A stretch of 34,487 nucleotides of DNA from Chloroflexi bacterium HGW-Chloroflexi-2. Lineage in GTDB: Bacteria; Chloroflexota; Anaerolineae; Anaerolineales; Anaerolineaceae. Both the position numbers and the translations under genes were made by a program. Below are positions 427 to 15,819 of this stretch, in pieces (within the stretch, counting starts at the first letter, position 1; every line of letters begins with the position of its first letter). The stretch spans positions 1 through 34,487 of the forward strand of contig PHBY01000026.1 in assembly GCA_002840735.1 (NCBI GenBank), given 5' to 3'. The notes below the pieces were generated by a model, which was given only the letters and a program-made list of their open reading frames with translations, did no database searches and had not been told where the DNA came from.

Positions 427-1034
427 ATGAACGCGAGCTGGCCGAAAAAATTGAAAATCTGGAGATGCTTAGGGACATTGGACGGGCAGTTGAGTCTGAA
501 AAATGCCACCATCACGATCGATCTTTAACAATTAAACATGCTTCAGCGGCGAATCGAGAGTCAGTAGACCCCAAACCCTACCAGTTCGACAGAAACGTGT
601 CGACGCCTGTCAAAAACCCAGTTGTTTTGCGGGACTTCTCACCCCCTCAAAACACCCAAAGAAAAGCTGACCTGAGAAAGTTGAAAGTTTCTTCGCTCAA
701 GGCTGAACACTGAAAAAGGAAAGTTTACGGAAAACCACCAGCTGCCAGGTTAATGCAGCAAGGCATTAAACGCCCATTCTATGCGGGACGCTCTCATGGC
801 GGTGGCTGTCGTTCGGAGCATGATGTGTAAAAGACCGGGGACGGGAGACCGGGGACGGGGGGAAAAAAGGCGTAGAGGTAAGGTCAAGCCACTACTCCGT
901 TCGTCTCTACTGTAGTTTCCGGTGGTTAATTTATTTATCAATTCTGATAAGTAGGTTGTTTTCATTGGATTTATGATTTAGATTGATCATGATAATTTAT
1001 AATTTTTTTAAATTTATTTTTTTAAGAGTTTATT
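427..1034. other. Intergenic stretch with heptad traces; no convincing gene
   Basis: No supported gene lies here. Three 7-bp words (CTCAAGG, CTGAACA, CTGAAAA) sit at 696-716, and four GACNGGG-type heptads at 833-860. The phrase GGTCAAGCCACTAC near 880 resembles one near 30070. From about 950 the composition drops abruptly to AT-rich, marking the left edge of the AT-rich block. Short ORFs on either strand here have no ribosome binding site or recognisable domain. Confidence 0.5.
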
Positions 1035-1868
1035 ATGACTGAAGATTCTGATTTAATTTCCAAGATAAAAGAATATTTATTTGAGTTATCAAAGAAAACC
1101 AGTTTAATTTCGATATCGACGGAAGAGTTAAATCTCAATCCAAGGGTTTTTAATGCTTTAGGAAGGTCTGGAATTACGAATTTGCGGCGCGTTTACCAGC
1201 AATTAGATAATATTTTTAATGGAAATATTAAATACGTTGGAGAAAGCGAAACAATCGAATTTTCACAAAAACTAATTAATTATTTAGAAATTAATAAGAT
1301 AAATCAAGTATCAGATCACTCCGAAAATGAAATCCTAAAAAATAAAGATGCCGTTTATAAGAATAAAGTTTTTCTCAAGAAAAAAGAAACTATTGAAGCT
1401 GATATGCCTATCCTTTCAAAGAATATTTCTGACCTAGTAATATTCTTATACTATTTGAGTGCTAGAAAAAATGAAATTGATTTGGGAGATGGACAAGAAC
1501 CAATTAATTTACCTAAAATTGAAGGATACGAACTAAGAACGGGGGAAGCTAGAGAAATTCAAGAAATAGTAAATGAATTTGAGTTAATAGAAAAAGAAAT
1601 CGAAGAAATCTTTTCTATGTTGAAAGAAAGAGATTTAGAAATAGTAAATGCACGAATAGGTTTCGATCCTGATGAAAGAAAAACTTTGCAAGTTATTTCT
1701 GATGAGTTTGGAATTACAAGGGAAAGAGTTCGCCAGATTGAAAAAAGAGTTCTTAATAGAATTAAGCAAATAATGTGTTCTACAAAGAAATCCTACATTT
1801 TTGAATTTCTATATAGAACAGTAAAAATTAATGAAATATGTAGTAAAAAGACTTTGTTGATTAATTAA
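1035..1868 (+). CDS. RpoA-CTD-like / sigma-70 region 4 DNA-binding protein
   Basis: A 277-aa soluble protein with two recognisable nucleic-acid modules. Residues about 32-60 (LNPRVFNALGRSGITNLRRV) resemble the helix-hairpin-helix C-terminal domain of the RNA polymerase alpha subunit. Residues about 196-245 match sigma-70 region 4, including the recognition-helix signature GITRERVRQIEKRVLNRIK. No region 2 (the -10 and core-binding part) is visible, so it is not a complete sigma factor. A charged coiled-coil-like stretch (160-195) joins the modules. By inference it is an RNA polymerase-associated or promoter -35-binding regulator, possibly controlling the accessory genes downstream. The gene is AT-rich with a weak ribosome site (AAGAG), and ATG at 1035 is the only sensible start. 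Confidence 0.75.
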   Translation: MTEDSDLISKIKEYLFELSKKTSLISISTEELNLNPRVFNALGRSGITNLRRVYQQLDNIFNGNIKYVGESETIEFSQKLINYLEINKINQVSDHSENEILKNKDAVYKNKVFLKKKETIEADMPILSKNISDLVIFLYYLSARKNEIDLGDGQEPINLPKIEGYELRTGEAREIQEIVNEFELIEKEIEEIFSMLKERDLEIVNARIGFDPDERKTLQVISDEFGITRERVRQIEKRVLNRIKQIMCSTKKSYIFEFLYRTVKINEICSKKTLLIN

Positions 1869-2208
1869 ACTTTTAATAAATAATTAAAACCATAAGATGG
1901 ATATACTCAACAATTATATAATTAAATATTATTTTCTTTCCAATTGGAATCTATAGAAGCCATGCATTTACAGTAGGGCGATTTCAAGAAAACATGAAGA
2001 CATAAAGAGGCGCGCTAAATTGATTAATGAAAATGACTACACAGACAGGTATAATTAGGCCACCGGTTTTATTCTGAACAAGACTAACTGTGAAGAGGTT
2101 TCGAATTCGCAAGTATCCAAACTGATCATAGCTGTTTTTGGCTTACTCTAAACGAATAATGACCCCGAAATACAATTAAATCAAGGAACTCTATTTAAGG
2201 TCTTAAGC
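1869..2208. other. 340-bp AT-rich intergenic region
   Basis: No gene is supported. A perfect 12-bp palindrome TTCCAATTGGAA lies at 1938-1949, and the same palindrome, longer, recurs at 14321-14340. The region probably holds the promoter of the MazG-like gene, and an AAGG ribosome-site-like word lies just before its ATG at 2209. Confidence 0.5.
1938..1949. promoter_or_regulatory. 12-bp palindrome, candidate operator
   Basis: Perfect palindrome TTCCAATTGGAA in the gap between the sigma4-like gene and the MazG-like gene. An extended 20-bp copy occurs at 14321-14340. Two exact copies of a 12-mer palindrome in intergenic DNA of the same AT-rich block are not expected by chance. The binding protein is unknown. 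Confidence 0.3.
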
Positions 2209-2544
2209 ATGGAAATTAAAGACTTATCCGAACAAATCATCAAATTTCGCGATCAAAGAAATTGGGAACAATTTCACCAAATAAAAGATTTGTTACTGGG
2301 TCTGGACATTTAAGTGTCAGAACTGATGGAATTATTTTTATGGAAATCTGATTCGGAAATTGATCAAGTTCCAAAGGAAAAGATCAAACATGAATTAGCC
2401 GATATTTTCATCTACCTCGCTTATGTTGCTGAAAAATTTGATATCGATTTTGAAGAAGCGATTGTGGAAAAGATAAAACTTAATGGAGAAAAATATCCAG
2501 TCGAAATGAGTTATGGATCGAATAAGAAATATAGCGAGTTGTAA
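2209..2544 (+). pseudogene. MazG-like nucleotide pyrophosphohydrolase, broken by one TAA
   Basis: Reading from ATG 2209 gives a near-canonical MazG-like protein of 111 codons. Helix 1 contains RNWEQFHQIKDLLLGLDI, then an in-frame TAA at 2311-2313, then VSELMELFLWKSDSEI and the second metal motif HELADIFIYL. In this all-alpha NTP pyrophosphatase family the first motif is ExxE (usually EASELLE). The TAA sits exactly at its first Glu codon, consistent with a single GAA-to-TAA change. The frame is otherwise intact to 2544. A GTG directly after the stop could restart translation, but the product would lack helix 1 and that Mg ligand. Family members hydrolyse (d)NTPs to NMP plus PPi. Most likely a fresh pseudogene; a sequencing error is the main alternative. 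Confidence 0.8.
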
Positions 2545-2734
2545 AGAAGTTTTAACATAGGCAAAGAATCTTTTGACTGGCGGTAGGGCCAAGGAGAACC
2601 ATTGAGCTTCAATAAACAAAAAGGGTTTTGAAAAATAAGGCAGGAAAAAAAGGCGTTGATCCAAAAAGAGTGTGGAAATGATTAAATTACTATTGAACCC
2701 AATTTTCGTCTTGCCAGCATTAAGGAGAGAATAA

Positions 2735-3499
2735 ATGAGTAAGCCGCATGTCAATTATGCTTTAGACCCAAAACCAATCGGAATTGGCGGACAAGCCGAG
2801 GTTTTTAGAGCTCGTGATAAACAATCAAACCAATTTGTGGCTTTTAAGCGTCTTCTACCAAATCTCAGAATGGATAAAGATGCAACTGCGCGAATGAAAA
2901 GGGAAATTGATGTTCAATTTGGAATAAAGCATCCTAACATCATGCCAATATTGGATTATTCAGAACATTATTACTGGTACACCATGCCATTGGCAGAACA
3001 GTCTTTAATGGATATGCCGAATCCTATTGAATATCTACAAATTCTTCAAATAATTGAAGAAATTGCTTCTGGGTTGGAATTTGCTCATAAATTTGGCAAC
3101 ATACACAGGGATATTACACCAAGAAATATCCTTGAGTGTAAATCAGCTGACGGAAATACTAGATGGGTAATTTCGGATTGGGGACTTGTCCGTCGGATAG
3201 GTAATACATCTGCAATCAGAACCTCTCCAGGTTATCAATATGGTACGGAAGGATTTGCAGCTCCTGAATCCGGATTAGATGCTCATTTTGTCGATGCAAG
3301 AGCTGATGTTTATAGTTTAGGGCGAGTAGTTGCTTGGTGCATGTCAGGAATTTTGCCTCTTCAGAATATCCCCCTTAACCCCGATGGACCATTACAAGAT
3401 TTTATCTTGAGGACAACAAAACTATACCCTCACGAACGTATTGCTAACATGAATGATATTTTAAAAATGATTAAAGAGTTAAAAAATACAACTATATAG
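2735..3499 (+). CDS. Ser/Thr protein kinase, single cytoplasmic kinase domain
   Basis: A 254-aa protein that is almost entirely a Hanks-type kinase domain. The Gly loop GIGGQAEV is at 16-23, the ATP-anchoring Lys at K38 (VAFKRL), the alpha-C Glu near E57, the catalytic loop HRDITPRN at 124-131, the metal-binding DWG (variant of DFG) at 148-150, APE at 176-178 and the structural Asp at D191 (DARADVYSLG). All catalytic residues are present, so activity is expected. There is no transmembrane segment, PASTA or other sensor domain, unlike typical PknB receptors. A strong ribosome site (AAGGAGAG) precedes ATG 2735. It lies upstream of a TOPRIM protein in the same direction, suggesting a functional pair. 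Substrate unknown. Confidence 0.9.
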   Translation: MSKPHVNYALDPKPIGIGGQAEVFRARDKQSNQFVAFKRLLPNLRMDKDATARMKREIDVQFGIKHPNIMPILDYSEHYYWYTMPLAEQSLMDMPNPIEYLQILQIIEEIASGLEFAHKFGNIHRDITPRNILECKSADGNTRWVISDWGLVRRIGNTSAIRTSPGYQYGTEGFAAPESGLDAHFVDARADVYSLGRVVAWCMSGILPLQNIPLNPDGPLQDFILRTTKLYPHERIANMNDILKMIKELKNTTI

Positions 3500-3519
3500 A
3501 CATAGAAAGAAGGCTGAAT

Positions 3520-3588
3520 ATGATTGATGTTTTACGTATAGCTAATATTGGACAAACGTATTTAATTGATTTTGATACTTCAGGCTAA
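3520..3588 (+). pseudogene. Very short ORF between kinase and TOPRIM gene, possible remnant
   Basis: An ATG with a reasonable AGAAAGAAGG site upstream opens a 22-codon frame (MIDVLRIANIGQTYLIDFDT...) ending in TAA at 3586. The same frame stays protein-like for another 13 codons (VAIKNFYTNRINY) to TGA 3628-3630, which overlaps the TTG at 3627 of the next gene. It may be a genuine micro-ORF that couples translation, or a decayed gene with a nonsense codon like the MazG case. No family recognised. Confidence 0.25.
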
Positions 3589-3650
3589 GTAGCTATCAAA
3601 AATTTTTATACAAACCGAATTAATTATTGAGTCAAAGATACAAAGCTTCT

Positions 3651-5312
3651 ATGTTAAAACCAACCCAGCTTTCACAATTGATATACGAAAACCAAGATAT
3701 CTGGCAATTTAATTTTGAAGAGCCAAGAAATCTATCATCATTTTTCCGGGATCTCAATGTAAATTTTTCAGAGGACCAAATTATTCATTTTTGGCAAATA
3801 GGATGGGTGAGAGCAGATTTAGTTCACGGTAATTTTACCTCAGAGCTTGAAGGATTTGATATCCTCGACCTCTTAGAAGATGAAGGATCGCTGTATTCTG
3901 ACAACCGAATTCTTGGATCAACACAAATTCAGTTAGAAGAACCGGTCAAAAAATTTGTAGAAAAAATGCCCAACGTAGTCCCATATTTTCACCCATTCAA
4001 ATATTTTGTCTTTTGGGATATTCAAAGAATCATCCAATTTAGAGTTCATCCTTACCAAATGATGATTCCAACCAGATATCATTATATTTTGGATCAGGAA
4101 ATCAAAATCTTTTATAACTGGATTCAAAGCGAAAGTGCTAAAACTCGAATAAATTATATAAACGATATCACTAGTTTAGCAATCGCGACAGAGCCATGTT
4201 TTTATACTGAAATTTTTAACAATTTGAAATATTCTCCTAGAATCAGTGCCGAAGAACAATGGACTAATATTAATACTTATAAGACGCATCTCAAAGAGTA
4301 TTACCTTCAAATCGGGATTGAACCGATAAAAGAAATGACCAGGACACTTTGCATATCCGCCGAAATGTTAGAACACAACAAAAATATTCATTCTCTTTTG
4401 CGATTTATGAATGGTAGGCAGCGATTAAAAATAAAAGGAAACCTAGGAGGTTCGATTCTCTTGAAATCTATGTCTGAAATCATTCGACGTATGGCTGAAT
4501 GGACCTTCGATACACAACTTCCAGAGGAAGACGAGATGGGTTTTGGAGTGTGGATGAAAGATGCAAAGGAAATATTCTATGGTACAAAACGTCTTTTTGA
4601 CTCACAAGATTTAAAACCAAAGCGTCAATTCATACGGCAGATGGAGCTTGACACAGAAATTCGAATCCGCTTTTATGTTGAAGGGCCAACCGAGTATACA
4701 GCATTTACCCATCTTCTCGATTTCTGGCAGCAGATTGAAATAATCGATCTTGCTGGCCAGTTTATTCAAGGGAAAAAGAAAGGATTAGCTTTTCGGGATA
4801 ATCTTGTAACTGATGACAGACAGGGTGTTTTTAGCATAATTATCCTTGATGGAGATCGTGATGACAATATTCGAATTGTAAAAAAAGCTGCAGAAAATGA
4901 TATATTTTGTGGTTCTTTCTATATTTCACAACCAGATTTCGAATATTACAACTTTTCTATCAATGAATTAACAGAAATTGTTTGGGATATTGTGGACAGC
5001 ATTGATAAGACAGAGCAAAATTATAAGTTGTTACAAGAAGCATTAAAGGAAACAACATGCTCTGAAGAATTATTCAAAGCAGCAAAAAAAACCATTCCTT
5101 CCATTTGCAACATTACAAAAGGGAAAGAATGGGGTGAAAAACTTGCTGAATATGCCGCCAAAAGGCCAAGGAAAGATGGAGATGGAAAGGAAAGGCCATT
5201 CATTGAAGCATGCAATACAGCAATTCGATCTATCAATATTGATTACCAATTCAACAGACGCGACTATTGGGTTGATCCTGAAACAGGAAAACTTGTCAAA
5301 AGAATAATATAA
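3651..5312 (+). CDS. TOPRIM-domain protein (OLD-nuclease-like) without ATPase
   Basis: A 553-aa protein from ATG 3651; an in-frame TTG at 3627 would add eight residues, and neither start has a clear ribosome site. The C-terminal half contains a TOPRIM fold signature: the catalytic-Glu motif VEGPTE (E344-E348), then IIILDGDRDD (D400, D402, D404), then PDFEYYNF, reminiscent of the D/E-rich region after the DxD motif in OLD-family nucleases. TOPRIM domains cut or join DNA or RNA with Mg2+. The first roughly 330 residues carry no Walker A or B motif and no family I recognise, so this is not a classic OLD ATPase-nuclease. The neighbouring kinase suggests the two work together, perhaps in defence. 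Function is inferred from motifs only. Confidence 0.7.
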   Translation: MLKPTQLSQLIYENQDIWQFNFEEPRNLSSFFRDLNVNFSEDQIIHFWQIGWVRADLVHGNFTSELEGFDILDLLEDEGSLYSDNRILGSTQIQLEEPVKKFVEKMPNVVPYFHPFKYFVFWDIQRIIQFRVHPYQMMIPTRYHYILDQEIKIFYNWIQSESAKTRINYINDITSLAIATEPCFYTEIFNNLKYSPRISAEEQWTNINTYKTHLKEYYLQIGIEPIKEMTRTLCISAEMLEHNKNIHSLLRFMNGRQRLKIKGNLGGSILLKSMSEIIRRMAEWTFDTQLPEEDEMGFGVWMKDAKEIFYGTKRLFDSQDLKPKRQFIRQMELDTEIRIRFYVEGPTEYTAFTHLLDFWQQIEIIDLAGQFIQGKKKGLAFRDNLVTDDRQGVFSIIILDGDRDDNIRIVKKAAENDIFCGSFYISQPDFEYYNFSINELTEIVWDIVDSIDKTEQNYKLLQEALKETTCSEELFKAAKKTIPSICNITKGKEWGEKLAEYAAKRPRKDGDGKERPFIEACNTAIRSINIDYQFNRRDYWVDPETGKLVKRII

Positions 5313-5357
5313 AACCCCCATTATTAAATAGGTGTTTATCTAGAGGTTAATTTATAC

Positions 5358-5389
5358 GAGTATTCGAAATTCCAAGTATTCGAAATTCC
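5358..5389. repeat. Two tandem 16-bp repeats
   Basis: Two adjacent units of RAGTATTCGAAATTCC at 5358-5373 and 5374-5389, differing at the first base, just downstream of the TOPRIM gene. Each contains TTCGAA. They could be a protein-binding site or a simple duplication. Confidence 0.6.
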
Positions 5390-5466
5390 TTAATACTTTT
5401 CGATGTCACCAGATTAGAAAACATCACCAATTATATAATCTTCAGTTGTTTGATTATGTCAGTATA

Positions 5467-5950
5467 TTAATTACAAAATAGGTTGGTGAGGTCTTCCACT
5501 TGGAGGTCAATTAAAACATTATCACGAATTAATAATGTATGGGCATTAACATGCTTTCTATAATCGGTATATTTTTCAATAATCTGATGAGGGATTTTCA
5601 AAACACGTTCTACTTCGATCTCCTTATTAAATATAACGACAATTAAGTAGTCAAAATCGACCTCTTGGAGATTACGAATTGCACTTAGTTGTATGGTTGG
5701 TCTTATTGCCTCTTGTCACATGCCTGGATTTAATTTGAAACTTTTTTCCTGAAGAGTCCTCTGCGTCATAGCCTTTTGTTGAATTTGACATTAATTTCAA
5801 ACCAAATTTATTGGCAACTAGCCATTCTGTATAATCACCAACTGGGCTATTGGCTGTTAGGATGACTTTTCTCGTCTTTAACTCTTCAAGAATCCTCCCA
5901 TAAAGCTGAAGAAGTTCTGCAGTCGTTGCTGATTTTATATCTAATTTCAT
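5467..5950 (-). pseudogene. Frameshifted small protein resembling DUF6998
   Basis: On the minus strand an ATG at 5950 opens a frame with a leading helix, VILTANSPVGDYTEWLVANK and GYDAEDSSGKKFQIKSRHV, but it stops at 5672. From about 5693 the protein continues in another frame (QLSAIRNLQEVDFDYLIVVI, then KIPHQIIEKY and HVNAHTLLIRDNV) to a stop at 5467-5469. One inserted base near 5693 accounts for the break. The joined product of about 160 aa resembles DUF6998-type proteins, whose DxxxxGKxxQIKxR core is nuclease-like in appearance. I know of no proven function. The family name is from memory of its pattern and is moderately certain; the frameshift itself is clear. Confidence 0.7.
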
Positions 5951-6063
5951 TGCTTTGCCTTTCTTTCTGATGATTTCTTGAAATTACTATTATCAAGCTG
6001 TAAATCAATGTTGAAGCCATGAATTAGATCCAAATTACAATCCGGGCGTATGAAATATCTCAT
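5947..6063 (-). CDS. Small ORF upstream of and overlapping the frameshifted gene
   Basis: ATG at 6063 encodes 38 residues (MRYFIRPDCNLDLIHGFNID...) and its TGA overlaps the ATG of the frameshifted gene in an ATGA arrangement, a sign of translational coupling. The frame is open a few codons further upstream without a better start (preceding TGA), so it may be the surviving 3' end of a longer decayed gene. No domain recognised. Confidence 0.3.
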   Translation of the reverse strand: MRYFIRPDCNLDLIHGFNIDLQLDNSNFKKSSERKAKQ

Positions 6064-6204
6064 TTTTTCGTCCCAAAAGAGTCAGGGACAAAAAAACAAT
6101 TGTATTTAACACGAATGATATCACCAAGTGTTTGAAATTAAAGAATCGTTTTCCAAATTATCAGTTGCATTTCAATCGACTAATTTCTTGAAGGACAATT
6201 TTTA

Positions 6205-6801
6205 TCAATTTTTTACAATTAATATATTCAACCACAATTCATCCTCTCTATTAGGTCGGACATCATAAGTTTTCCACATTTTAAATATTTTTAATTTAGG
6301 AATGTTAGATAGAAATATTTTAAAGGAATGCTCATTGTAGTTAGAAAATATCCTACCGTTTCTAAATTCCTCATTTTCACCATATTTGAAAGACATATAA
6401 AAAACGCCATTTTTTCGAAGCGCATTGGAAAAAAGTTTGAGAATATTTTGAATTTGGGATTTTGGAATATGTAAAAGGGACGCACAAGCCCAAACCGCAT
6501 CGAATTCATTTTCGAATTGTACCTGTGAAAAATCCAACTGAAGAATTTCTAATCCAGTTACCTCACGTGCTTTTTTTACCATCTCTTCTGATGCATCAAT
6601 TCCAACCACCTCAAAGCCTAATCCATGGAAATATTTTACATCCCTACCAGGGCCACAACCCGCATCCAAGATTTTTGCACCAGGTTTTAAATGTTCTAAA
6701 AAGGGTTTGTACAACGACTCCAGATTTAAATCTAAAGTGCTTGAGATATATGATTCTGAGTTTTTATTGTAGTATTCAATAGTTTCTTTGGTTTTATTCA
6801 T
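6205..6801 (-). CDS. Class I SAM-dependent methyltransferase, small-molecule type
   Basis: A 198-aa Rossmann methyltransferase. Motif I is ILDAGCGPGRDVKYF (about 44-58), an acidic loop at the end of beta-2 is VVGIDASEEMV, and the motif IV region is FDAVWACASLLHIP. It has no [DNS]PP[YFW] or PC motif of DNA methylases. It therefore looks like the Methyltransf_11/25 group acting on small molecules or proteins. Its ATG overlaps the end of the HNH gene by eight bases (ATGAATAA), so the two are translated as a unit, downstream of an XRE regulator. The order regulator - nuclease - methyltransferase copies a type II restriction-modification operon, but the enzyme class does not fit. Substrate unknown. 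Confidence 0.85.
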   Translation of the reverse strand: MNKTKETIEYYNKNSESYISSTLDLNLESLYKPFLEHLKPGAKILDAGCGPGRDVKYFHGLGFEVVGIDASEEMVKKAREVTGLEILQLDFSQVQFENEFDAVWACASLLHIPKSQIQNILKLFSNALRKNGVFYMSFKYGENEEFRNGRIFSNYNEHSFKIFLSNIPKLKIFKMWKTYDVRPNREDELWLNILIVKN

Positions 6802-7792
6802 TATTTATTTTCACAAATGCTTGAAATATCGGATCTGTTGCAGGGTCATATCCGGCCAGTTCATCCCAGGGGGTTTTAAGTATCTGAACTGCCTCATTAT
6901 AAACCTTCATGACGGTTCCAAATCTCTTTTTGGGAGTTAATCCTAGAGCACTTATAATTTTATCTTTCAATGGATGATTGCTCTTAATCAAGAACTCATT
7001 TCGGTTAATGAGATGCTGAATATGTTGTTTTGTTGGCAAGTGATCACTTTTTTGTTGGTTGCATAAAGAATGCGCTAATACCAAATTCCACACTTCATCA
7101 TGATACACAATTTGTCTGGGGATCACGTGATCAACTTCGATGTTCTCTTCGAACATAGGTAATCCACAATAAAAACATTTACCTTTTTGGTATCCATCTA
7201 AAGCTGATCGCAAGTGGGTAATATCTGTTCTCTTGTATCCATTTAATAGATAAAAAGCACGGATATCATTCTCCAATTTACTGTTTGATTTCCGAATTTC
7301 AAATGCAGCTTCCAATAAGTCCCACCTAGTAGTTATTTCTTCAATAAGTGATTGCAAATTTGAGTTGGAGATTGCCTCAAATGTTTTATCAGTAATAGTT
7401 AAACCTGTGGAAAAATCGAAGTGATAAAAATTTGATGAAACAGTAATGTTATCGATAGTATGAAAACGTGGGAGCACATCATTGAATGCGTTTATCCTTA
7501 CTTCTTCAATCGCCTGTTCTTTTGATAGTATTTCTAAATTATATTTTGCTACAACTCTTTCCATTACTGTTTTTCTGGAAATATGATTCAATTGAGGGCG
7601 ATTAGTTTTAAGCCGTTCTTTGTATAATTCAAAGAAACTAGCAGAAAGTTCGTCCATCGAAATATGTGTTTTTCCTAAAATTGCCTGGTCTAATAATACC
7701 TTTGCAAGCCCCAGCTTATAAGTTGCAGTATTTTTTCCAAGTAATATTATTCCCCGCCAATTTTGTTCAGGCGTTAGTATATTCGATGCCAT
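6794..7792 (-). CDS. HNH endonuclease-domain protein
   Basis: A 332-aa protein from ATG 7792 (a TTG at 7795 is also in frame). The C-terminal part has an HNH module with Cys pairs: CFYCGLPM at about 206-213, VDHVIPRQIV at 220-229, then NLVLAHSLCNQQKSD at 236-250. This is the betabetaalpha-metal nuclease fold, with zinc knuckles formed by C206/C209 and a later Cys. The N-terminal 200 residues (starting NWRGIILLGKNTATYKLGLA) are helical and unassigned; they may recognise DNA or sense a partner. It sits 28 bp downstream of an XRE regulator and overlaps a methyltransferase gene. A restriction-like or abortive defence nuclease is a reasonable inference; the target is unknown. Confidence 0.85.
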   Translation of the reverse strand: MASNILTPEQNWRGIILLGKNTATYKLGLAKVLLDQAILGKTHISMDELSASFFELYKERLKTNRPQLNHISRKTVMERVVAKYNLEILSKEQAIEEVRINAFNDVLPRFHTIDNITVSSNFYHFDFSTGLTITDKTFEAISNSNLQSLIEEITTRWDLLEAAFEIRKSNSKLENDIRAFYLLNGYKRTDITHLRSALDGYQKGKCFYCGLPMFEENIEVDHVIPRQIVYHDEVWNLVLAHSLCNQQKSDHLPTKQHIQHLINRNEFLIKSNHPLKDKIISALGLTPKKRFGTVMKVYNEAVQILKTPWDELAGYDPATDPIFQAFVKINNE

Positions 7793-7820
7793 CAATCAAT
7801 CCCCAAGAAAAGAAAATAAA

Positions 7821-8045
7821 TTAACTTTGTTCGCTCTTAAAATCAAAAAAATCTTTGACCGGTACTTCTAACGCCAAAGAAAGTTTTTCTAATGTTTCAA
7901 AGGAAGGGGCATTTATTCCTCTTTCCATGAGGCTTAGAAAATCAACAGATATTTCAGCTTTTTGAGCTAATTGTTCTTGAGTTAAATTAATTTGATGGCG
8001 AAGATATAAAAGTTTCTTTCCAAATCTCTGTCTCAATGAACTCAT
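7821..8045 (-). CDS. XRE-family regulator, controller-protein size
   Basis: A 74-aa Cro/C1-type helix-turn-helix protein. The HTH spans about 19-58 (LTQEQLAQKAEISVDFLSLM, then ERGINAPSFETLEKLSLAL), followed by a short VKDFFDF tail. The size and composition match C (controller) proteins that open type II restriction-modification operons, although XRE antitoxins are also this size. It is the first gene of the minus-strand operon XRE-HNH-methyltransferase and faces a divergent plus-strand gene cluster across a gap of about 120-250 bp. It probably binds that gap and autoregulates. Confidence 0.9.
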   Translation of the reverse strand: MSSLRQRFGKKLLYLRHQINLTQEQLAQKAEISVDFLSLMERGINAPSFETLEKLSLALEVPVKDFFDFKSEQS

Positions 8046-8058
8046 TTTGCTATATTAA

Positions 8059-8095
8059 CGTAATGAGATTCAGAGTACCACCGAGCGAGATTACG
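8059..8095. promoter_or_regulatory. Candidate operator: spaced inverted repeat before XRE gene
   Basis: CGTAAT at 8059-8064 and ATTACG at 8090-8095 form a 6-bp inverted repeat separated by 25 bp, 14 bp upstream of the XRE start codon. The position suits an autoregulatory site, but the arms are short and chance is a real alternative. Confidence 0.25.
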
Positions 8096-8166
8096 GATTT
8101 TAATTTGGAAACAAGAATTTTTTCAAATTACTAAGTCATGATCTTCTAGTGAAATATAATATAAAG

Positions 8167-8322
8167 ATGGTATGGATGTATAAAGGTACTGGGAACATGA
8201 CCTTGTCTGTACTTGATGGTGATGGTTTTTTCCATTTAACATATTGTGGGAGCAAATCTTATCAAACATATTTAGGAAAAGTAAAAGAAGGAGGGGTACA
8301 TGTCACTCGAAGAGGAGTTTGA
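8167..8322 (+). CDS. Small ORF overlapping the next gene start
   Basis: ATG 8167 opens 51 codons (MVWMYKGTGNMTLSVLDGDG...) ending at TGA 8320-8322, so it overlaps the strong ribosome site and first 23 bases of the following gene. The middle (FFHLTYCGSKSYQTYLGKVK) faintly recalls short beta-hairpin segments in DUF6788-like proteins. It is preceded by an AT-rich stretch but no clear ribosome site. It may be a remnant or a leader that couples to the next gene. Confidence 0.3.
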   Translation: MVWMYKGTGNMTLSVLDGDGFFHLTYCGSKSYQTYLGKVKEGGVHVTRRGV

Positions 8323-8599
8323 TCGGCATTTACATCAACTTGGTGAAGCGACAAGAAAACACAATTATATTCCAACATATTTTATTAGAATGCTGGAAGA
8401 ATTTGGGGGAGTTGAAACCGCAAAACGGCTATTGCAAAAAACAGATGCGCTACAAGGTCTTTTCACGCTTTGGGAGTTGGGTTTATTAAAAGAATCGGTT
8501 GAAGCAGCTGTTATAAGTGAAAAATTCCAAGCACTCTTTACGAAAGAAGAGATATCAGAAGCTCGGAAAAGGTTAGAAGATTTAGGATATTTTGATTGA
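8300..8599 (+). CDS. Conserved-looking 99-aa helical protein, function unknown
   Basis: A strong AGAAGGAGGGG ribosome site lies just before ATG 8300, so expression is likely. The product is all-helical, acidic and soluble: an N-terminal helix with HQLGEATRKHNYIPTYFIRM, then FGGVETAKRLL, then LFTLWELGLLKESVEAAVIS and a C-terminal FTKEEISEARKRLEDLGYFD. The FGGVETAKRLL ... LWELG ... LF..EEI..AR.RL pattern looks familiar from small conserved hypotheticals, but I cannot name the family. It precedes a winged-helix/PD-(D/E)XK protein by 63 bp in the same direction, and that gene has its own strong ribosome site. The two probably form an operon and may act together. Confidence 0.7.
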   Translation: MSLEEEFDRHLHQLGEATRKHNYIPTYFIRMLEEFGGVETAKRLLQKTDALQGLFTLWELGLLKESVEAAVISEKFQALFTKEEISEARKRLEDLGYFD

Positions 8600-8662
8600 T
8601 AATTAGAGTAAAGCGTTGAGTAGAAAATAGCCTGAAAGAAGAAAATCGAAGGAGAGTAAATC

Positions 8663-9340
8663 ATGACCATCCGTGATCGAATCGAAGATTACTTAAAAAA
8701 CCACCCTGAAGGGATAAATGATGATGACCTGGCATTTAATCTTGGTCTGAAAAGTCGTCAGCAGGCAAACTCACGTTGTCGTCAATTGGAAAAAGAAGGG
8801 TTCGTTAAAAGAGTGGTGATAGGTGGAATCATACATAATTTCTGGTCAGAGAATTTCTATCCAAGGACCGCAACAGAGATACAAGCAAAGATAGTCTCAA
8901 CGCAAACAAAAACGACAAAACAACCAACAGATGTGCCAAAATCCAGCCATTGGTTTTGGGAAGGAAATGTCCAATCCAAAGTTATCAATTTCCTGGTCTC
9001 ACAAAAATATCAGATCCGTTCTGTGGCTGATACTGCCTCTCACCAAACGGGTATTGATATCATGGCTGAAAAGGATGGCAAAAAACTTTGGGTGTCGGTA
9101 AAAGGGTATCCACAAGGAACTGAAAAGACGAACGCATCAACCCAATCCAGACATTGGTTCAAACAAGCAATCTTTGACATCATCGAGTATCGCGAACGAG
9201 ACAAAGAAGCTTTTCTGGCGGTGGCGTTTCCTGATTTTCCGTCCTACCGAAATCTGGCAAAAAAGATCACCTGGCTAAAGTCTGCGGCCAAATTTGTGTA
9301 TATATGGGTCAAAGAAGATGGAAGTGTATCGGTTGAATAA
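8663..9340 (+). CDS. Winged-helix plus PD-(D/E)XK nuclease-like protein
   Basis: A 225-aa protein starting at ATG 8663 after a good GGAGAG site. Residues 1-60 form a winged helix-turn-helix (DDDLAFNLGLKSRQQANSRC). After a linker, residues 96-225 look like a PD-(D/E)XK or Mrr-type nuclease core: E100 in the first helix (WFWEGNVQSKVINFL), D132 in GIDIMAE, then WVSVKGYP with K147. The usual E/Q two residues before that Lys is a Ser here, a variant site. Downstream TQSRHWFKQAIFDIIEYR is a helix that could pack against the active site. The likely role is DNA binding with possible cleavage. Defence is suggested by its neighbours but not shown. It could alternatively be an inactive relative. Confidence 0.7.
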   Translation: MTIRDRIEDYLKNHPEGINDDDLAFNLGLKSRQQANSRCRQLEKEGFVKRVVIGGIIHNFWSENFYPRTATEIQAKIVSTQTKTTKQPTDVPKSSHWFWEGNVQSKVINFLVSQKYQIRSVADTASHQTGIDIMAEKDGKKLWVSVKGYPQGTEKTNASTQSRHWFKQAIFDIIEYRERDKEAFLAVAFPDFPSYRNLAKKITWLKSAAKFVYIWVKEDGSVSVE

Positions 9341-9365
9341 AAGGCATACTTTTAAATTAATTTTT

Positions 9366-9395
9366 TTGTGTGATTTTAATTATTCTAGCTATAAT
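9366..9395 (+). promoter_or_regulatory. Candidate sigma-70 promoter for the large secreted protein
   Basis: TTGTGT at 9366-9371 and a perfect TATAAT at 9390-9395 are separated by 18 bp in the gap before the 1547-aa gene. About 110 bases remain to the ATG, giving a 5' leader of roughly 105 nt. Confidence 0.45.
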
Positions 9396-9509
9396 TTTAA
9401 AACATAGAGAAATTTCGATATTTTATAAAATGGGAGGAAAAAATCATTATTAAAATTGAATATTTTCAACAGGTAAATTTCATTATTCAAAATAAATAGG
9501 GAGGACGAT

Positions 9510-12500
9510 ATGCGATTACTATATTTTGTTACAACTTTTTTTCTATTTTCAAGCGGTATTACGAATTTTTTTTATAATAATCATAAGCCGAGTAACGATA
9601 ATTTGATTAATGAAAGTATATTACTGCCAGGCTTTGCTTTACCTTATGATGAAAATGAGATCGTTTATTGGACAGGTGGACCTCATCAATTTAATAATTT
9701 GGATTTTACAGGTAAATACCCTTCCGGGCAAGGATCGGGGTTAGATTTTGCTAATGGAACTAATTTTGATGTTCTTGCAATGGCAACAGGTACAGTAATT
9801 CAAGCAGACCCTAATTGTAATAAAGATTTTGGATGTCAAGTAGCAATTAGGCATTTCACAGGTAATACGGTTCTAATTTATGGGCATCTTAAAAAGGGAA
9901 CTATTTCAGTAAAAGTTGGAGATAAAGTTTCTCGAGGTGATATTTTAGGAAAAGCTGGTAACACTGGGATGGAGTTCTTAGAACCTGATAAGCGCAAAAT
10001 CCACCTGCATATAGAATTGCGCGATGGCAGCACATCATGTTTCTCCAGATGCCTTAAAGATCAATTGGGCGGAAACCCAATAGGTTGGGATGATTTATTA
10101 GATCTTGTTGATGGTTATAGAATAGGAGGATATATCGCAGATAGTGAAGGGATTGAATCATATAATTATGACGGTTCCGCAATTAAAGGAGAAATAAAAA
10201 TACTTGACAATTTTAATTTTCTTGATCAACCAGGCGATATAAAAAAATTAGCAATAGTGAGGGTTCATCGCGATTTTATTTTTAACGAAGGTTCTAACAA
10301 TTATGAAGATAATTCAAACCCTTTAACTCAATTTGCCGGTCATGGGAGAATTTTTTCTGAAGTTTTTAATAGCTTGACAATTAATGACAAAATTAAAACA
10401 ATAGATAATGTTGCTTTTTTGAAATCATCAAATCAGAAAAATTGGAAGGAAATTGAAACTTTTTCGGACTCAGCTTCTTTCATCTCAGACATCACTCTTC
10501 CAGACGGCTCAATAGTCTCACCAAATCAAGCACTAACAAAAACGTGGCAAATAAAAAATACTGGATCAACTACCTGGGGAGATGGCTATAAATTAGTTTT
10601 TCTACGTGGGGATCGAATGAACTCACCTCTCGAAATAAATGTTCCAGTAACTTCTCCTGGGTCAATAACAAATATCTCAGTTCCGATTACAGCCCCAAGT
10701 GTCTCTGGAAGTTATAAAGGTTATTGGCAACTAAGAAATCCACAAGGGACATACTTTGGCTCTGAACTCTGGGCACAAATTGAAGTAAAAACATCCAGTA
10801 ATTACATAACCGCCATTGTTACTGATCCCCCATCACCCTCAAACACCAATTTAGTTCGTGTTTATGCAAAAGCAGAAAACTTTCCAAACTTCCGCGCAAT
10901 GCGTTTTAAGGTAAATGGAGAAGTTAAATATGAAATTGGATCATCCGAAGCTACTTTTGAGTGGTATACAGATGGTTACAATATAGGAAGTCACTCGATC
11001 ACGGTAGAAATTGCCGATCATACTGACACTTCGTGGACGAGAGCAGAAACCCGATCAATTTCTTATAATTTATTAGGAACGGGCGTTACACCAAATCATG
11101 TGCCCAATAAACCAACTCCGAAAAGTCCATATGACTGGTATGTATACTATTCAGGTAGCACTGCACAGCTATGCGCGCAACATAATGGTGATCCGGATGG
11201 TGATCCCATTTCGGGATACTATTTCGAAGTGTCAGGTGCGGAGATCTGGAATAGTGGTTGGACGAGTAATAGCTGTGTAACAACTGCAAGTATGGGACCA
11301 CATTCCTACTCGTGGAGAGTAAAAGTACGAGATAATAAAGGCGGAGAGAGTATTTGGAGTGATAGTTGGCATTATACATTGGTAAATCCAACGCTATCAA
11401 TCACACAATTATATTTTGAACCGCAAGATGCAACTAAAGAAAGAATTAAGATTCGAGCTTGCACAGAAGGTCAGGGTGGAATTGGAATCACCATGAAAGT
11501 GATGGTCAATGAAGCAACCGATGGTAGCAGTAATGGAAAATGGAACACTTTGTATGAATTAGGTGTACCTTGTTTTAGTGATATTGATGCACCCATCTGG
11601 GACACTTTTGGTTATTATGACGGCACCCATAGGGTTAGGGTTGAAGCCCATGGGCTCAATACTGGTTGGGATGGTGCGGCTGTTCGTGAAGAAACATATA
11701 CATTGCCTCAGAGAAGGCCTCCCGGGCCAAAATTATTTGCTCCTGTTCCTACATCAAGAAACAATAGGGATAAGATTTTTATAAATTCTCGCACAATTAC
11801 TTTTTCCTGGGAACCAACCATAAGAACGAACAGCTTTACTTTGCATGTAGGGACAAACCCAAACCCGAAGGATGATAGCAATCCAATTCTGAGACAAACA
11901 TTTGCCAGTACCACTACGAGTTATACTCATACATTTGATCAGGATTATCAAACTTTATATTGGCAAGTTACATCAACAAATAGTATTGGAACTTCATCGT
12001 CCACAGATCAATTATTTGGAATAGACAGAGTACAGCCTTCGTGTTTAGTAAAACCACTCACAGAAATAACATATGAAAATGCATTTCAAGTTAACTGGTT
12101 GGGGTCAGATATTTTATCTGGTATTTATCTTTATGATATTCAATTCAAGGATTCTGATAGAGGAGATTGGATAGATTGGCTTTCATCCCAGCCATCAAAT
12201 ATTACTTTTTCGTTATTTAACGGACAGCCTGGCCATACATATTATTTTAGATGTAGGGCTTCAGATAGGGCTAACAATTTAGGTGAATATCCTTCAATTG
12301 ACGACACATATACTAAAATTGATCCATCAGCACGGCCGCCTGAACCTTGGTGGAACAGCGCATATGGCAAAAAACGAAACATCATTATTCAAAACAACGA
12401 TAGCGATACCATGCCAGTTCATTATCCAATTCGGATCCATTTTGATTCAAACACAAATCCTACAGCAGAGGAAATTTACTATGCGTCTTTATCCACGGTT

Positions 12501-14153
12501 AAAGGAAATGATATTCGCCTTGTTTATCAAAACGCTGTTGAGATAAATAGATTCATTCAAAGATTTTCAATTAACCAAATTGATATTTGGATTCCACTTC
12601 AAAACACTCTTGTTAAGAATGCCGTAGACTCTTCAAATTATCAAATTTATTATGGCAACCCAACGGCAGTAAATCCACCAGCAAATATCTCCTCAGTATT
12701 TGTTCCATTGGTAGATTCTAACACCGTAGGTCTTTGGCATTTTCAAGAAGGAGGTGGTAGTACTGCGTATGACAGTTCTGGAAAAAATAACAATGGAGCT
12801 TTTTATAATGTAACCTGGAAAGACAGTCCTTTGGGTTGGGCGCCTTTGTTTAATGGAACAAGTTCTTACGCGTCAATACCTCATTCTTCGGTATTTAATA
12901 CCAATACTTTAACAGTAGAAGCATGGGTGTATGTTTCTGTCTTTGATGGTAGAAGCCATCCTGTTGCTATTAAGCGTATACCTTACACAGCAGGAGGGTT
13001 TGAATTTCGATTCAATAGAGATAGAGAAATAGTTTTCATTGTTGACCAAACAACTGGAAATTGGGACGTAACCTCTTCAGCACTTGAAGCGGGAAAATGG
13101 TATCACCTTGCTGGTGTTTATAATGGTTCGAATAGACTCTGTTTATATGTGAATGGTGTTCAAAATAAGTGTAGAGATATAACAGCAGGCACCTTAAAAT
13201 ATAACTCGGGAGCAATAACCGTTGGCGCATTTTTTAGCGGAAGTGGAACCACCTATTTTCCAGGTTATATTCATCACGTTCGTATCTCAAACATAGCCCG
13301 TACAGACTTTTCATATGCAAAGATAGACATCCAGCCCTCTGTCGCTGTAGGAATCCTTCAAATACCTCCAGCACAAGGAAAAGCCGACCTCGAAATTCAA
13401 ACCATAAATGCTTTTACTGATTCAGTTGGAGGAGTAATAATTGAAGCTACTGTGAAAAATATTGGAGTTGTAGGAACGTCCAATGGTTTTTATACCGATT
13501 TGTATGTAAATCGGATTCCAACTGGAATAGGTGATTTTGAAGGTAGTATAGAGTTCTGGGTAAACGATCCAATACCTGCTGGAGGAACGGTAAGGTTGAC
13601 AACCAGATTGGACTCACCAATCGAGATAGGACTAAAGTCAAGCTTGCCTAGCGAGGAGAGATATTGGACACTTTATGTACAGACTGATTCTACCGGGGCA
13701 ATAATCGAAGATGATAAAGCTAATAACATCAACACCGAAGGAACAATCGTATGTTTCGTTTCGGCAGACTCTTTTGAAGGAGACGATGATTTCTTAACGG
13801 CATCAAATTTAAAAGAAAGTCAAACACACAATTTCGATCGACCTGGAGATGAAGATTGGTTCAAAATAGAAGCAGTTCAAGGAAAAACATATCAGATCAA
13901 TACATTCAATCTTGGATCCAATGCAGATACCGTTATGTATCTATATGACCAAGATGGAACAACGATATTAGCTACTAACGATGATTATACTGATGATTTA
14001 TCATCGAGAATAATCTGGGAAGCTCCAGAAAATGGAATTTACTTTGTTCAGCTGAAGCAGTGGAACCCATTATCTTCTGGGTGTGGAACATCTTATACCA
14101 TTAGTATAGGAGATAGCTCCAATAAGATTTATCTTCCAATCCTTACAAAATAA
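9510..14153 (+). CDS. Giant secreted multidomain protein with degenerate M23 domain
   Basis: A 1547-aa exported protein; ATG 9510 follows an AGGGAGG site. A hydrophobic segment at residues 3-22 is a likely signal or anchor. Domains in order: M23/LytM-like at about 55-175; NBR1-type Ig domain at 320-430 (TWQIKNTGSTTWGDGYKLVF); FN3/Ig-like beta domains at about 525-630 and 735-940; DUF2341 at 946-1065 (WWNSAYGKKRN); LamG/ConA-like lectin at 1073-1270 (VGLWHFQEGG, LTVEAWVYV); CARDB at 1290-1405; and PPC at 1420-1535. The M23 domain keeps GLDF (D79), YGHL (H126) and HLH (165-167), but the zinc His expected at position 75 is Gly. It may thus bind rather than cut peptidoglycan. The end KIYLPILTK is typical in style of Chloroflexota secreted proteins. 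Adhesion or cell-wall attachment is inferred. Confidence 0.8.
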   Translation: MRLLYFVTTFFLFSSGITNFFYNNHKPSNDNLINESILLPGFALPYDENEIVYWTGGPHQFNNLDFTGKYPSGQGSGLDFANGTNFDVLAMATGTVIQADPNCNKDFGCQVAIRHFTGNTVLIYGHLKKGTISVKVGDKVSRGDILGKAGNTGMEFLEPDKRKIHLHIELRDGSTSCFSRCLKDQLGGNPIGWDDLLDLVDGYRIGGYIADSEGIESYNYDGSAIKGEIKILDNFNFLDQPGDIKKLAIVRVHRDFIFNEGSNNYEDNSNPLTQFAGHGRIFSEVFNSLTINDKIKTIDNVAFLKSSNQKNWKEIETFSDSASFISDITLPDGSIVSPNQALTKTWQIKNTGSTTWGDGYKLVFLRGDRMNSPLEINVPVTSPGSITNISVPITAPSVSGSYKGYWQLRNPQGTYFGSELWAQIEVKTSSNYITAIVTDPPSPSNTNLVRVYAKAENFPNFRAMRFKVNGEVKYEIGSSEATFEWYTDGYNIGSHSITVEIADHTDTSWTRAETRSISYNLLGTGVTPNHVPNKPTPKSPYDWYVYYSGSTAQLCAQHNGDPDGDPISGYYFEVSGAEIWNSGWTSNSCVTTASMGPHSYSWRVKVRDNKGGESIWSDSWHYTLVNPTLSITQLYFEPQDATKERIKIRACTEGQGGIGITMKVMVNEATDGSSNGKWNTLYELGVPCFSDIDAPIWDTFGYYDGTHRVRVEAHGLNTGWDGAAVREETYTLPQRRPPGPKLFAPVPTSRNNRDKIFINSRTITFSWEPTIRTNSFTLHVGTNPNPKDDSNPILRQTFASTTTSYTHTFDQDYQTLYWQVTSTNSIGTSSSTDQLFGIDRVQPSCLVKPLTEITYENAFQVNWLGSDILSGIYLYDIQFKDSDRGDWIDWLSSQPSNITFSLFNGQPGHTYYFRCRASDRANNLGEYPSIDDTYTKIDPSARPPEPWWNSAYGKKRNIIIQNNDSDTMPVHYPIRIHFDSNTNPTAEEIYYASLSTVKGNDIRLVYQNAVEINRFIQRFSINQIDIWIPLQNTLVKNAVDSSNYQIYYGNPTAVNPPANISSVFVPLVDSNTVGLWHFQEGGGSTAYDSSGKNNNGAFYNVTWKDSPLGWAPLFNGTSSYASIPHSSVFNTNTLTVEAWVYVSVFDGRSHPVAIKRIPYTAGGFEFRFNRDREIVFIVDQTTGNWDVTSSALEAGKWYHLAGVYNGSNRLCLYVNGVQNKCRDITAGTLKYNSGAITVGAFFSGSGTTYFPGYIHHVRISNIARTDFSYAKIDIQPSVAVGILQIPPAQGKADLEIQTINAFTDSVGGVIIEATVKNIGVVGTSNGFYTDLYVNRIPTGIGDFEGSIEFWVNDPIPAGGTVRLTTRLDSPIEIGLKSSLPSEERYWTLYVQTDSTGAIIEDDKANNINTEGTIVCFVSADSFEGDDDFLTASNLKESQTHNFDRPGDEDWFKIEAVQGKTYQINTFNLGSNADTVMYLYDQDGTTILATNDDYTDDLSSRIIWEAPENGIYFVQLKQWNPLSSGCGTSYTISIGDSSNKIYLPILTK

Positions 14154-14177
14154 TACTAATAGGTTTGTTCGTTTTGA

Positions 14178-14210
14178 AGCGGTTGAGATTTTTTCATCAA
14201 CCGCTTTTTA
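14178..14210 (+). terminator. Rho-independent terminator
   Basis: A 9-bp perfect stem AGCGGTTGA / TCAACCGCT (14178-14186 and 14197-14205) with a 10-nt loop is followed by a T run. It lies 25 bp after the stop of the large secreted protein gene. Confidence 0.85.
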
Positions 14211-14320
14211 TTACTATTTTCCAAAAGTTATGATTGGAATTTTCCATCTCAGTTGGGCTTGATACTTATTGAAATAACATGTGATCCATAGAAAGAAGCA
14301 CCTGACTCTAAATTTAGTAT

Positions 14321-14340
14321 TAATTTCCAATTGGAAATTA
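14321..14340. promoter_or_regulatory. 20-bp perfect palindrome
   Basis: TAATTTCCAATTGGAAATTA is fully self-complementary and contains the same TTCCAATTGGAA core found at 1938-1949. It lies in the convergent gap between the secreted-protein terminator and the end of the lipoprotein gene, so it could be an operator of a lost gene or a protein-binding site. Confidence 0.35.
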
Positions 14341-14437
14341 AATTATGTGGAAACACTCCCCATGAGGCAATTAATAGTGCAGAGAATGACATTTTAAAAG
14401 GGGTAGATATAGGTTTGATACTTAAATAACAGGAAAA

Positions 14438-15097
14438 TTATGGTGTTGAGGTTTCAAATATTTCACCAATACTTTGAATGGCTTCATCGCGAACTTTTTT
14501 CAATTCTTCTGCGTCGATTCCATTTATTCCACTTAATTCTTTTTCAAGATCAACCATAATCTTTTCTATTGATGCGTTCAAGGCTGGTGTTTTTTCCATC
14601 ACGATTGAGGAATCAATTTTTTTATTAAACCAATCTCCAAGCAATGTTTTTGTCTCTTCGTGTATCATGAGAGCATCTTCCCAATAAGGTTTTAAAAATG
14701 GTAATGGAGTTGTTACTGCTATTCCTTTATTTACTTCATCAATGATTGTTGCTAAACCTAATAATGCACCTAAGGCTTCAAAACCTGCTAATTCTCCATT
14801 ATTTACTTTAGTTGCAGTTTCTTCTAGCATATTTGAATCAATTTGAATGAATAAAAGGATTTGATACGCTTGGCGTAAAGAGTTAAGTTCCTCCTCTGTG
14901 AGTGGTAGAGGGGTCGGCGTGAGAGTTGGTTCAGGGGTTGCCGTAGCGGTAGGTGTTGGGGTTATGGTAGGGGTATTAGTTGGTGTGAAAGTAGCAGTCG
15001 GTAAAATCTCGGTTGGTAGTAATGTGGGTTCAACCAAACTTCCAGGTGAGCAAGCAGTAATTAGTAGAATCAAGAGGAATGATAAAAATTTTTTCAT
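14438..15097 (-). CDS. Lipoprotein with Pro/Thr-rich linker
   Basis: A 219-aa protein starting with a type II signal peptide (KKFLSFLLILLITAC, lipobox LITAC, acylated Cys16). Residues about 22-66 are a Pro/Thr-rich spacer (TPTNTPTITPTPTATATPEP) that would lift the domain off the membrane or cell wall. Such spacers are common in Chloroflexota lipoproteins. The rest, about 68-219, is helical and acidic (LTEEELNSLRQAYQILLF..., LEKELSGINGIDAEELKKVR) and I do not recognise it. A good ribosome site (AGGGAG) precedes the start. It is convergent with the big secreted protein and appears to be monocistronic. Function unknown. Confidence 0.8.
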   Translation of the reverse strand: MKKFLSFLLILLITACSPGSLVEPTLLPTEILPTATFTPTNTPTITPTPTATATPEPTLTPTPLPLTEEELNSLRQAYQILLFIQIDSNMLEETATKVNNGELAGFEALGALLGLATIIDEVNKGIAVTTPLPFLKPYWEDALMIHEETKTLLGDWFNKKIDSSIVMEKTPALNASIEKIMVDLEKELSGINGIDAEELKKVRDEAIQSIGEIFETSTP

Positions 15098-15364
15098 TAA
15101 CTACTCCCTTATCGTAATAAATATATGCTTCCAAATAATTTTCTAATTTTCATGGTTATCCCTAAAGCCATGATTTTCCGGTTTCATTATTATAGCAAAG
15201 GTGTCGTACCACAATTTATGATTAACAAAATTGTAAACCATCATCTTCTCATACAATTTCTTAAAAATTACAATTCTAAAACTATGGTATAAAAATACAG
15301 TGTGCATTAAAGTCGTAATAAATAGTTATCTAAACCCACTTAAAGAATCTCTCAAGGCTCCCCA

Positions 15365-15523
15365 ATGTTCCCAGACGAATCCTCCGAAGAACACCCCGAC
15401 TCCTTCTACCAGGACGGCTCCTACGACGACAGCGATGGTGACAACCACCCCTCCAGCAAAGGCTGCCTGGTAGTGATGGCCATCATCCTGATCCTCTCCC
15501 TGCTCCTGCGCTACCTGCAGTAA
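15365..15523 (+). CDS. Small single-pass membrane protein, acidic N terminus
   Basis: ATG 15365 encodes 52 aa. The first 30 residues are Asp/Glu/Ser-rich (MFPDESSEEHPDSFYQDGSY...), followed by a clear transmembrane helix CLVVMAIILILSLLLRYLQ at the C terminus. Codon use is strongly GC-ending, matching the genes to the right and not the AT-rich block on the left. This supports a real gene and marks the compositional switch. The ribosome site is weak (CTCAAGG). A shorter overlapping minus-strand frame is a shadow. Function unknown; possibly a small regulatory or division-associated membrane peptide. Confidence 0.6.
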   Translation: MFPDESSEEHPDSFYQDGSYDDSDGDNHPSSKGCLVVMAIILILSLLLRYLQ

Positions 15524-15555
15524 ACACGCTACCGCAGTACTCCGCATGAAACGGG

Positions 15556-15702
15556 TTGAGTGTTGAGTATTGAGGATTGAGGTTTGAGGTTTGAGGGTTG
15601 AGGTTTGAGGATTGAGGTTTGAGGTTTGAGGATTGAGGTTTGAGGATTGAGGATTGAGGATTGAGGATTGAGGATTGAGGGTTGGGGGTTGAGGGTTGAG
15701 AA
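15556..15702. repeat. 21-unit heptad array TTGAGGN
   Basis: Twenty-one consecutive 7-bp units, no gaps. TTGAG starts nearly every unit, and the variation is concentrated at the last base (A, T or G). Exceptions are the first two units, one TTGGGGG and the last TTGAGAA. Confidence 0.95.
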
Positions 15703-15722
15703 GTTGAACTGTCAGCTATAGC

Positions 15723-15772: not shown

Positions 15773-15819
15773 CTAGCATTTTCTCATCATAGTCAATCAT
15801 GAAATCACAAAAATCGGAT

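Follow-up and report, generated by a model that had tools for sequence, protein, structure and literature searches.

OLD-type nucleases are the described enzymes closest to the TOPRIM protein analyzed here. In BpOLD, according to the available text of that study (PMC6755086), metals are bound by E400, D455, D457, E404, T506, and E508, and K562 is also catalytic. A 2023 review asks, in its accessible sections, for cases in which an OLD-type protein alone suffices for broad defence (PMC10568477). The accessible portions of the literature on OLD, Gabija, PARIS, and retrons yielded no description of an ATPase-free, stand-alone OLD-like TOPRIM family. A gene that appears to belong to such a family lies at positions 3651–5312 (+ strand) of contig PHBY01000026.1 of Chloroflexi bacterium HGW-Chloroflexi-2 (assembly GCA_002840735.1). 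The entire contig, 34,487 bases of a 4.1-Mb source genome in 40 contigs, was analyzed and is called the window. The gene is the last of a block of four (1035–5312), following genes for a DNA-binding regulator, a MazG-like protein, and a Ser/Thr protein kinase. We consider it rather probable that the block belongs to a partly decayed island of separate modules, in which an OLD-type TOPRIM nuclease that stands alone and has no ATPase, probably serving as a one-gene antiphage effector, lies beside a separate kinase. All functions are read from sequence and predicted structure.

The open reading frame (ORF) of the TOPRIM protein is open from TTG 3627, and ATG 3651 is the more likely start because the relative with 58% identity begins there. 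The gene is intact. As the initial annotation had noted, its product carries EGPTE and DGDRDD and lacks the Walker A motif GxxxxGK[ST]. The Walker motif is missing in all 12 members checked (the window protein and 11 relatives), and the window protein has no AAA or ABC match in Pfam. The Pfam OLD-like TOPRIM model matches 5 of the 12 members at expectation values (E) up to 1, the best being 9.5e-05. A model of the window protein was predicted from 11 sequences (predicted local distance difference test, pLDDT, 80.5; predicted template modeling score, pTM, 0.58) and compared with known structures using VIA-align 2, as a second comparison after Foldseek. The top rows were four C-terminal regions of OLD proteins (6nk8, Z 11.4; 6njx, 10.6; 6njv, 10.5; 6njw, 10.2; residues 343–542), the 6nk8 alignment spanning residues 343–537 with 165 residues at 3.9 Å. 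Further rows were GajA (Z 8.1), T. scotoductus OLD (8.1), and AriB (8ux9, 7.5 over 172 residues). In the predicted model, the C-terminal TOPRIM and helical nuclease domain (residues 343–540; 4653–5246, + strand) is of the OLD type.

Conservation of the putative catalytic residues agrees with this assignment. E352, E356, D408, and E439 are conserved in 12 of 12 members and K498 in 11, the exception being L008, where this part is disrupted by an IS3-type element. Together with D410, these residues follow the same order as BpOLD E400, E404, D455, D457, E508, and K562, so that the two sets may be paired by order and offset. Weak PADLOC matches of the protein to Cas11a (0.00045, residues 439–499) and AbiLii (0.044) were put aside as unlikely by anatomy.

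The N-terminal domain (3651–4634, + strand) was likewise modeled, as had been suggested at the outset. The 336 N-terminal residues alone gave a well-predicted domain (pLDDT 83.7, pTM 0.85), in which helices and short beta elements extend to about residue 92 (numbering of the 561-residue ORF) and a helical bundle follows. No structural counterpart emerged: Foldseek searches of the PDB and BFVD returned no match at E ≤ 0.001, and Z was at most 3.6 in the second structural comparison. HEPN and other known folds were rejected on this absence of a match, which does not by itself prove a new fold. H122, E284, R287, E291, E301, and Y318 are conserved in 12 of 12 members, with exceptions once the remote relative L060 is added. 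Because this conserved polar set lies outside the nuclease domain, it suggests a sensing site or a second functional site.

In the mechanism that we propose, the N-terminal domain would be the control module in place of an ATPase, restraining the TOPRIM nuclease and sensing an infection cue; nucleic acid would then be cut by the C-terminal TOPRIM domain through two-metal catalysis. The domain make-up, the catalytic residues, and the lack of a constant partner come from the data, whereas nuclease activity and its substrate, the control step, and the antiphage role are inferred. The kinase would be a separate gene, from a clade found with defence nucleases elsewhere, whose former partner may be lost; its substrate might be the TOPRIM protein or something else, or it might have no target in the window.

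The TOPRIM family is rare and patchy. Matches occur in 6 of 301 genomes of the phylum, the window's own among them, and in 3 of 299 genomes around one relative, one of the three being the starting genome chosen for its match. A plasmid search gave one record, from Ideonella dechloratans. Scanning genome contigs with an alignment turned up seven loci, of which three were known from other searches, and a genome scan with the bare TOPRIM sequence gave no match. No relatives were found in viruses, either in three IMG/VR pattern scans or in phage records. After removal of duplicates, 13 relatives and the window remained, distributed over Chloroflexota, Pseudomonadota, and a metagenome-assembled genome of Desulfobacteraceae. 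The nearest, L015, is 58–59% identical over its full length, and the other aligned relatives are 17–35% identical; L059 (G372) shares 32% identity in its N-terminal part, and a remote relative is L060 (G591).

Proximity to known defence genes, which the initial annotation had proposed to look for, was found for 5 of the 13 TOPRIM relatives, with none identified beside the other eight. PADLOC assigned QatABCD and AbiEi/AbiEii to the island around L015, where integrase-like ORFs were read on both sides; a type IIG enzyme, PDC-S02, and a PD-Lambda-2_B-like protein to L059; PD-Lambda-5-like A and B and PDC-S73 to L014; an HKD+Snf2 helicase to L012; and a type I restriction enzyme to L016. Further restriction genes (Eco57I-like and type I S/M genes) lie near L012 and L016. 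The PADLOC scan of neighbours left out L008, L009, L010, L013, and L060. Across the 210 flank ORFs of the 14 TOPRIM loci (flanks of 8 kb at most), compared without setting two Herpetosiphon loci against each other, the sole recurring neighbour was one generic methyltransferase pair. An AAA/STAND-like ATPase gene lies upstream of the TOPRIM gene at L015, and no such neighbour recurs across the 14 loci. Separately, at L015 with L061 and L062, two further ATPase genes were seen next to the TOPRIM gene.

Several observations weigh against a single-gene, OLD-type antiphage effector. The window protein has no Pfam or NCBIfam family match, and Foldseek with its full model gave no match at E ≤ 0.001. 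The Z range of 7.5–8.1 overlaps that of unrelated Rossmann-like rows (a designed Rossmann fold, 8.1; manXA, 7.9), and values under 8 may reflect a common arrangement. The second Asp of the DxD motif, D410 in the window, is conserved in 8 of 12 members only. The defence neighbours were picked by eye, with no background rate and with most neighbours outside the scan. A single selected neighbour at each of L018, L021, and L011 had no PADLOC match, and the ORFs around L009 and L010 look like ordinary chromosome genes. Nonsynonymous divergence (dN) between the window gene and L015 is 0.29 and synonymous divergence (dS) 2.20, which speaks for the proposed effector, but a dS above 2 is saturated.

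Many replication and repair proteins carry TOPRIM domains, and the protein could instead be a nuclease that serves a mobile element or DNA repair. This would suit the eight relatives for which no defence gene was identified in the part of their neighbours scanned, and the position of L018, L009, and L010 among chromosomal genes. We nevertheless think it unlikely, given that the family is rare and patchy, that its nearest structural matches are OLD, GajA, and AriB, and that the relative with 58% identity lies between QatABCD/AbiE genes and integrases. A housekeeping TOPRIM family, the identity that the initial annotation had named as fatal to its proposal, is rejected on this rarity, and the fold matches are to OLD, Gabija, and PARIS proteins. 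An antiphage effector acting alone stays our preferred account of the TOPRIM gene.

The kinase gene (2735–3499, + strand) encodes a soluble protein of 254 residues. It had been described as possessing all catalytic residues, and the G-loop, VAFK, REI, HRD, and APE motifs are indeed present, with DWG in place of DFG. The initial annotation had further read the kinase and TOPRIM genes as a pair, a claim that did not survive comparison with their relatives: the lack of co-occurrence that it had itself named as a refutation is what was found. Translated stretches of 116 loci were scanned with profiles of the kinase (E ≤ 1e-10) and of the TOPRIM protein (E ≤ 0.01), and both matched only in three overlapping segments of the contig that is the window. 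None of the 13 TOPRIM relatives had a neighbouring kinase detectable with the profile in the flanks examined (up to 8–9 kb, with one side shorter at L016, 0.2 kb; L014, 3.3 kb; and L012, 4.3 kb), the window being the only one of the 14 TOPRIM loci with the pair. Conversely, none of 15 kinase relatives had a TOPRIM gene of the window family within 4.5–7 kb on each side (for L116, the whole 9.6-kb contig). These 15 comprise 13 of 16 Streptomyces places, L080, and L116. L110, L112, and L116 are looser kinase relatives, scoring 142–161 bits vs. 359–433 for the other Streptomyces proteins, and L080, a fragment, scores 201. The rest of the 41.6-kb L080 record held no TOPRIM match. In the same 301 genomes, six match the TOPRIM protein and 43 the kinase, with both only in the window's genome. 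A conserved kinase/TOPRIM pair is therefore rejected, and the pair is particular to the window's genome.

Within that genome, the two genes might still form a two-gene system, the kinase phosphorylating the TOPRIM protein, for instance on its N-terminal domain, and so switching the nuclease on or off. Both genes are intact and on the same strand, with 151 bp from the kinase stop to ATG 3651, and kinases of this clade are tied to nucleases elsewhere (a Cap4 fusion at L075, an LmuA-type fusion at L074, and an adjacent pP_pnuc_1 gene at L080). We regard such a system as distinctly improbable, however, as the partners are not kept among the relatives of either protein, and the TOPRIM relative with 58% identity and the kinase relative with 53% identity each live without the other gene. 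Most likely, the kinase and TOPRIM genes are two independent antivirus-type genes that became neighbours by chance in a decaying island.

With its DWG motif, the kinase falls into a rare clade. Its PADLOC matches to PD-T4-6 (2.5e-36), MAD6 (2e-30), and Stk2 (7e-26) come from profiles that probably score protein kinases in general. Against six Streptomyces plasmid proteins it scores 127–159 bits, whereas other chromosomal kinases of the phylum reach about 100 or less, and the DWG motif and an N[VI]PLxP stretch are present in 7 of 7 aligned clade kinases. The DWG clade is rare: in further genomes it was found in 1 of 301 (1e-45), 0 of 299, and 2 of 298 (1e-38), the extra one, G745, having DFG. 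The nearest relative, L080, is 53% identical over residues 8–187 and comes from an IMG/VR contig that also encodes a tyrosine integrase. At L080 5977–10350, a transposase gene interrupts the kinase gene, and genes for a pP_pnuc_1 nuclease and an Mrr-type nuclease follow; PADLOC identifies the pP_pnuc_1 gene as Aga_Nuclease (8e-06).

Three of 13 Streptomyces plasmid loci (L074, L075, and L078) adjoin Lamassu genes. L074 2505–8281 (NZ_CP130719.1) and L075 5981–12253 (NZ_CP108136.1) are Lamassu operons in which a second LmuA-like protein is fused to a DWG-clade kinase. In both, LmuB and LmuC are present and the kinase is preceded by a region that closely duplicates the LmuA next to it (phmmer, 360–477 bits). 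LmuA types differ between the two plasmids, and the fused nuclease domain is Cap4 in L075 and LmuA-type in L074. At L078 5798–11092, on a plasmid of Streptomyces sp. NBC_01361, LmuC and LmuB come directly after a DWG-kinase gene whose N-terminal region is of another kind. The L078 stretch examined yielded no relative of LmuA, and the kinase protein may stand in for LmuA there. Eight of the 13 Streptomyces kinase proteins share another N-terminal region, which gave no Pfam match in the seven scanned (L115 was left out). By phmmer, no Lmu genes were found at the other kinase loci examined, a weak negative as LmuB is divergent. In the window, likewise, two LmuA queries and three each of LmuB and LmuC detected no relative, a comparison of low sensitivity for LmuB, two of the three LmuB queries missing the locus of the third. 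The accessible parts of the Lamassu literature, including PMC11084316, gave no description of a kinase–LmuA fusion. Such a fusion in Lamassu operons would bring protein phosphorylation into Lamassu.

These arrangements raise the doubtful idea that the DWG kinase is a portable switch attached to different antiphage nucleases: an LmuA-copy fusion (L074 and L075), the mobile-element nuclease at L080 that is predicted to be pAgo-associated, and the ATPase-free OLD-type TOPRIM protein of the window, with phosphorylation releasing or restraining the nuclease. The earlier suggestion that the kinase switches a nuclease draws partial support from the Lamassu-adjoining Streptomyces kinases and the nuclease at L080, but not from the window's own combination, which is not kept in relatives. 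Kinase control of the nuclease in the window is possible but unproven.

The remainder of the block shows signs of decay. All four genes lie on the + strand, as first described, with ORFs at 1035–1868, 2735–3499, and 3627–5312 and long gene-free gaps at 1869–2208 and 2545–2734. Their AT-rich character was also borne out, the guanine and cytosine content of 1-kb bins being 27–41% at 1001–16000 and 45–60% beyond. The MazG-like gene (2209–2544, + strand), already recognized as broken, contains one in-frame TAA (2311–2313), and the portion 3′ of it matches PF12643 (7e-15); the gene is a pseudogene, or the stop is a sequencing error. The 22-codon ORF between the kinase and TOPRIM genes (3519–3587, + strand) had been described as coupled, which was not confirmed: it overlaps neither of its neighbours. 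The limited search for similar sequences, covering six Streptomyces kinase proteins and locus L080, gave none, and a leftover of the C-terminal part of the Streptomyces kinases was rejected for this lack of similarity. It may be a remnant. Pattern matches for promoters and terminators hardly departed from what shuffling predicts and were given no weight.

Protein 1 (1035–1868, + strand; 277 residues) is a DNA-binding regulator, and its description as a sigma region 4/alpha-CTD protein held in part. Sigma-70 region 4 is present at the C-terminus (PF04545, E 5e-10), and toward the N-terminus there is a weak alpha-CTD-like match (E 0.004; 17.2 bits, under the Pfam cut-off of 23.8). Relatives, aligned mainly over the sigma region 4 part, were found in 150 of 151 genomes of the phylum among the matches listed, and none in plasmids at 1e-8. 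Single-sequence scans of IMG/VR gave no close relatives of protein 1 or of the kinase. Protein 1 has no demonstrated link to the other block genes.

Downstream, a 92-residue piece (5672–5950, − strand) resembles the first half of a methyl-directed restriction enzyme (PDLC03212, 1.9e-29, profile positions 3–84 of 161). At 6205–8045 (− strand), genes for a methyltransferase, an HNH protein (Cas9/IscB/PtuB-like HNH), and an XRE regulator stand in a row that could be a restriction-like cassette. Because these genes and the restriction-enzyme piece adjoin the block, we take it as part of a larger, partly decayed island. Farther along are a weak EcoO109I-like restriction-enzyme match (8663–9340, + strand; E 0.0027, under the cut-off) and a 1547-residue ORF (9510–14153, + strand) with a signal-like start and many extracellular-type repeats. 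That the whole block is debris whose intact ORFs are being lost, as the interrupted MazG gene, the 92-residue piece, and the two gaps might imply, is very unlikely, for the ORFs of the kinase and the TOPRIM protein are complete and retain their catalytic residues, and dN is well under dS against their nearest relatives (0.29/2.20 and 0.41/2.47), although dS is saturated and the values reflect mostly a shared past.

Set against known systems, the kinase resembles PD-T4-6, Stk2, and MAD6 in its kinase domain and differs in its length of 254 residues and its DWG clade. It is linked to Lamassu through the closest-clade kinases in L074, L075, and L078, which adjoin LmuB/LmuC, two of them fused behind an LmuA copy, and the window differs in having no LmuA, LmuB, or LmuC match. 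The TOPRIM protein shares with Retron-Eco2 a TOPRIM effector without an ATPase, which there is part of a reverse transcriptase–TOPRIM fusion according to the available text of PMC12405507; neither the TOPRIM protein nor any of ten scanned genes of the window had a reverse-transcriptase match. AriB of PARIS, like the TOPRIM protein, has no ATPase in its own chain, with a structural Z of 7.5 over 172 residues, and the same ten genes include no match to an AriA-like ATPase. They also include no Pfam match to the UvrD-like/GajB-like helicase of Gabija.

The strongest likeness is to Class 2 OLD proteins (BpOLD and XccOLD; GajA), with which the window protein shares the C-terminal TOPRIM and helical domain (Z 10.2–11.4 with isolated OLD C-terminal regions) and the catalytic order E..E..D..E..K of BpOLD. 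It differs in lacking the N-terminal ATPase and Walker A, as do all 12 members, and in carrying an N-terminal domain of its own without a structural match; because the ATPase is missing, it is neither a Class 1 nor a Class 2 OLD protein as defined. It would presumably work like an OLD or AriB effector. If this is true, OLD-type TOPRIM nucleases act as single genes without an ATPase and with their own control domain, and the family makes the question posed in the accessible sections of the 2023 review (PMC10568477) testable with one gene.

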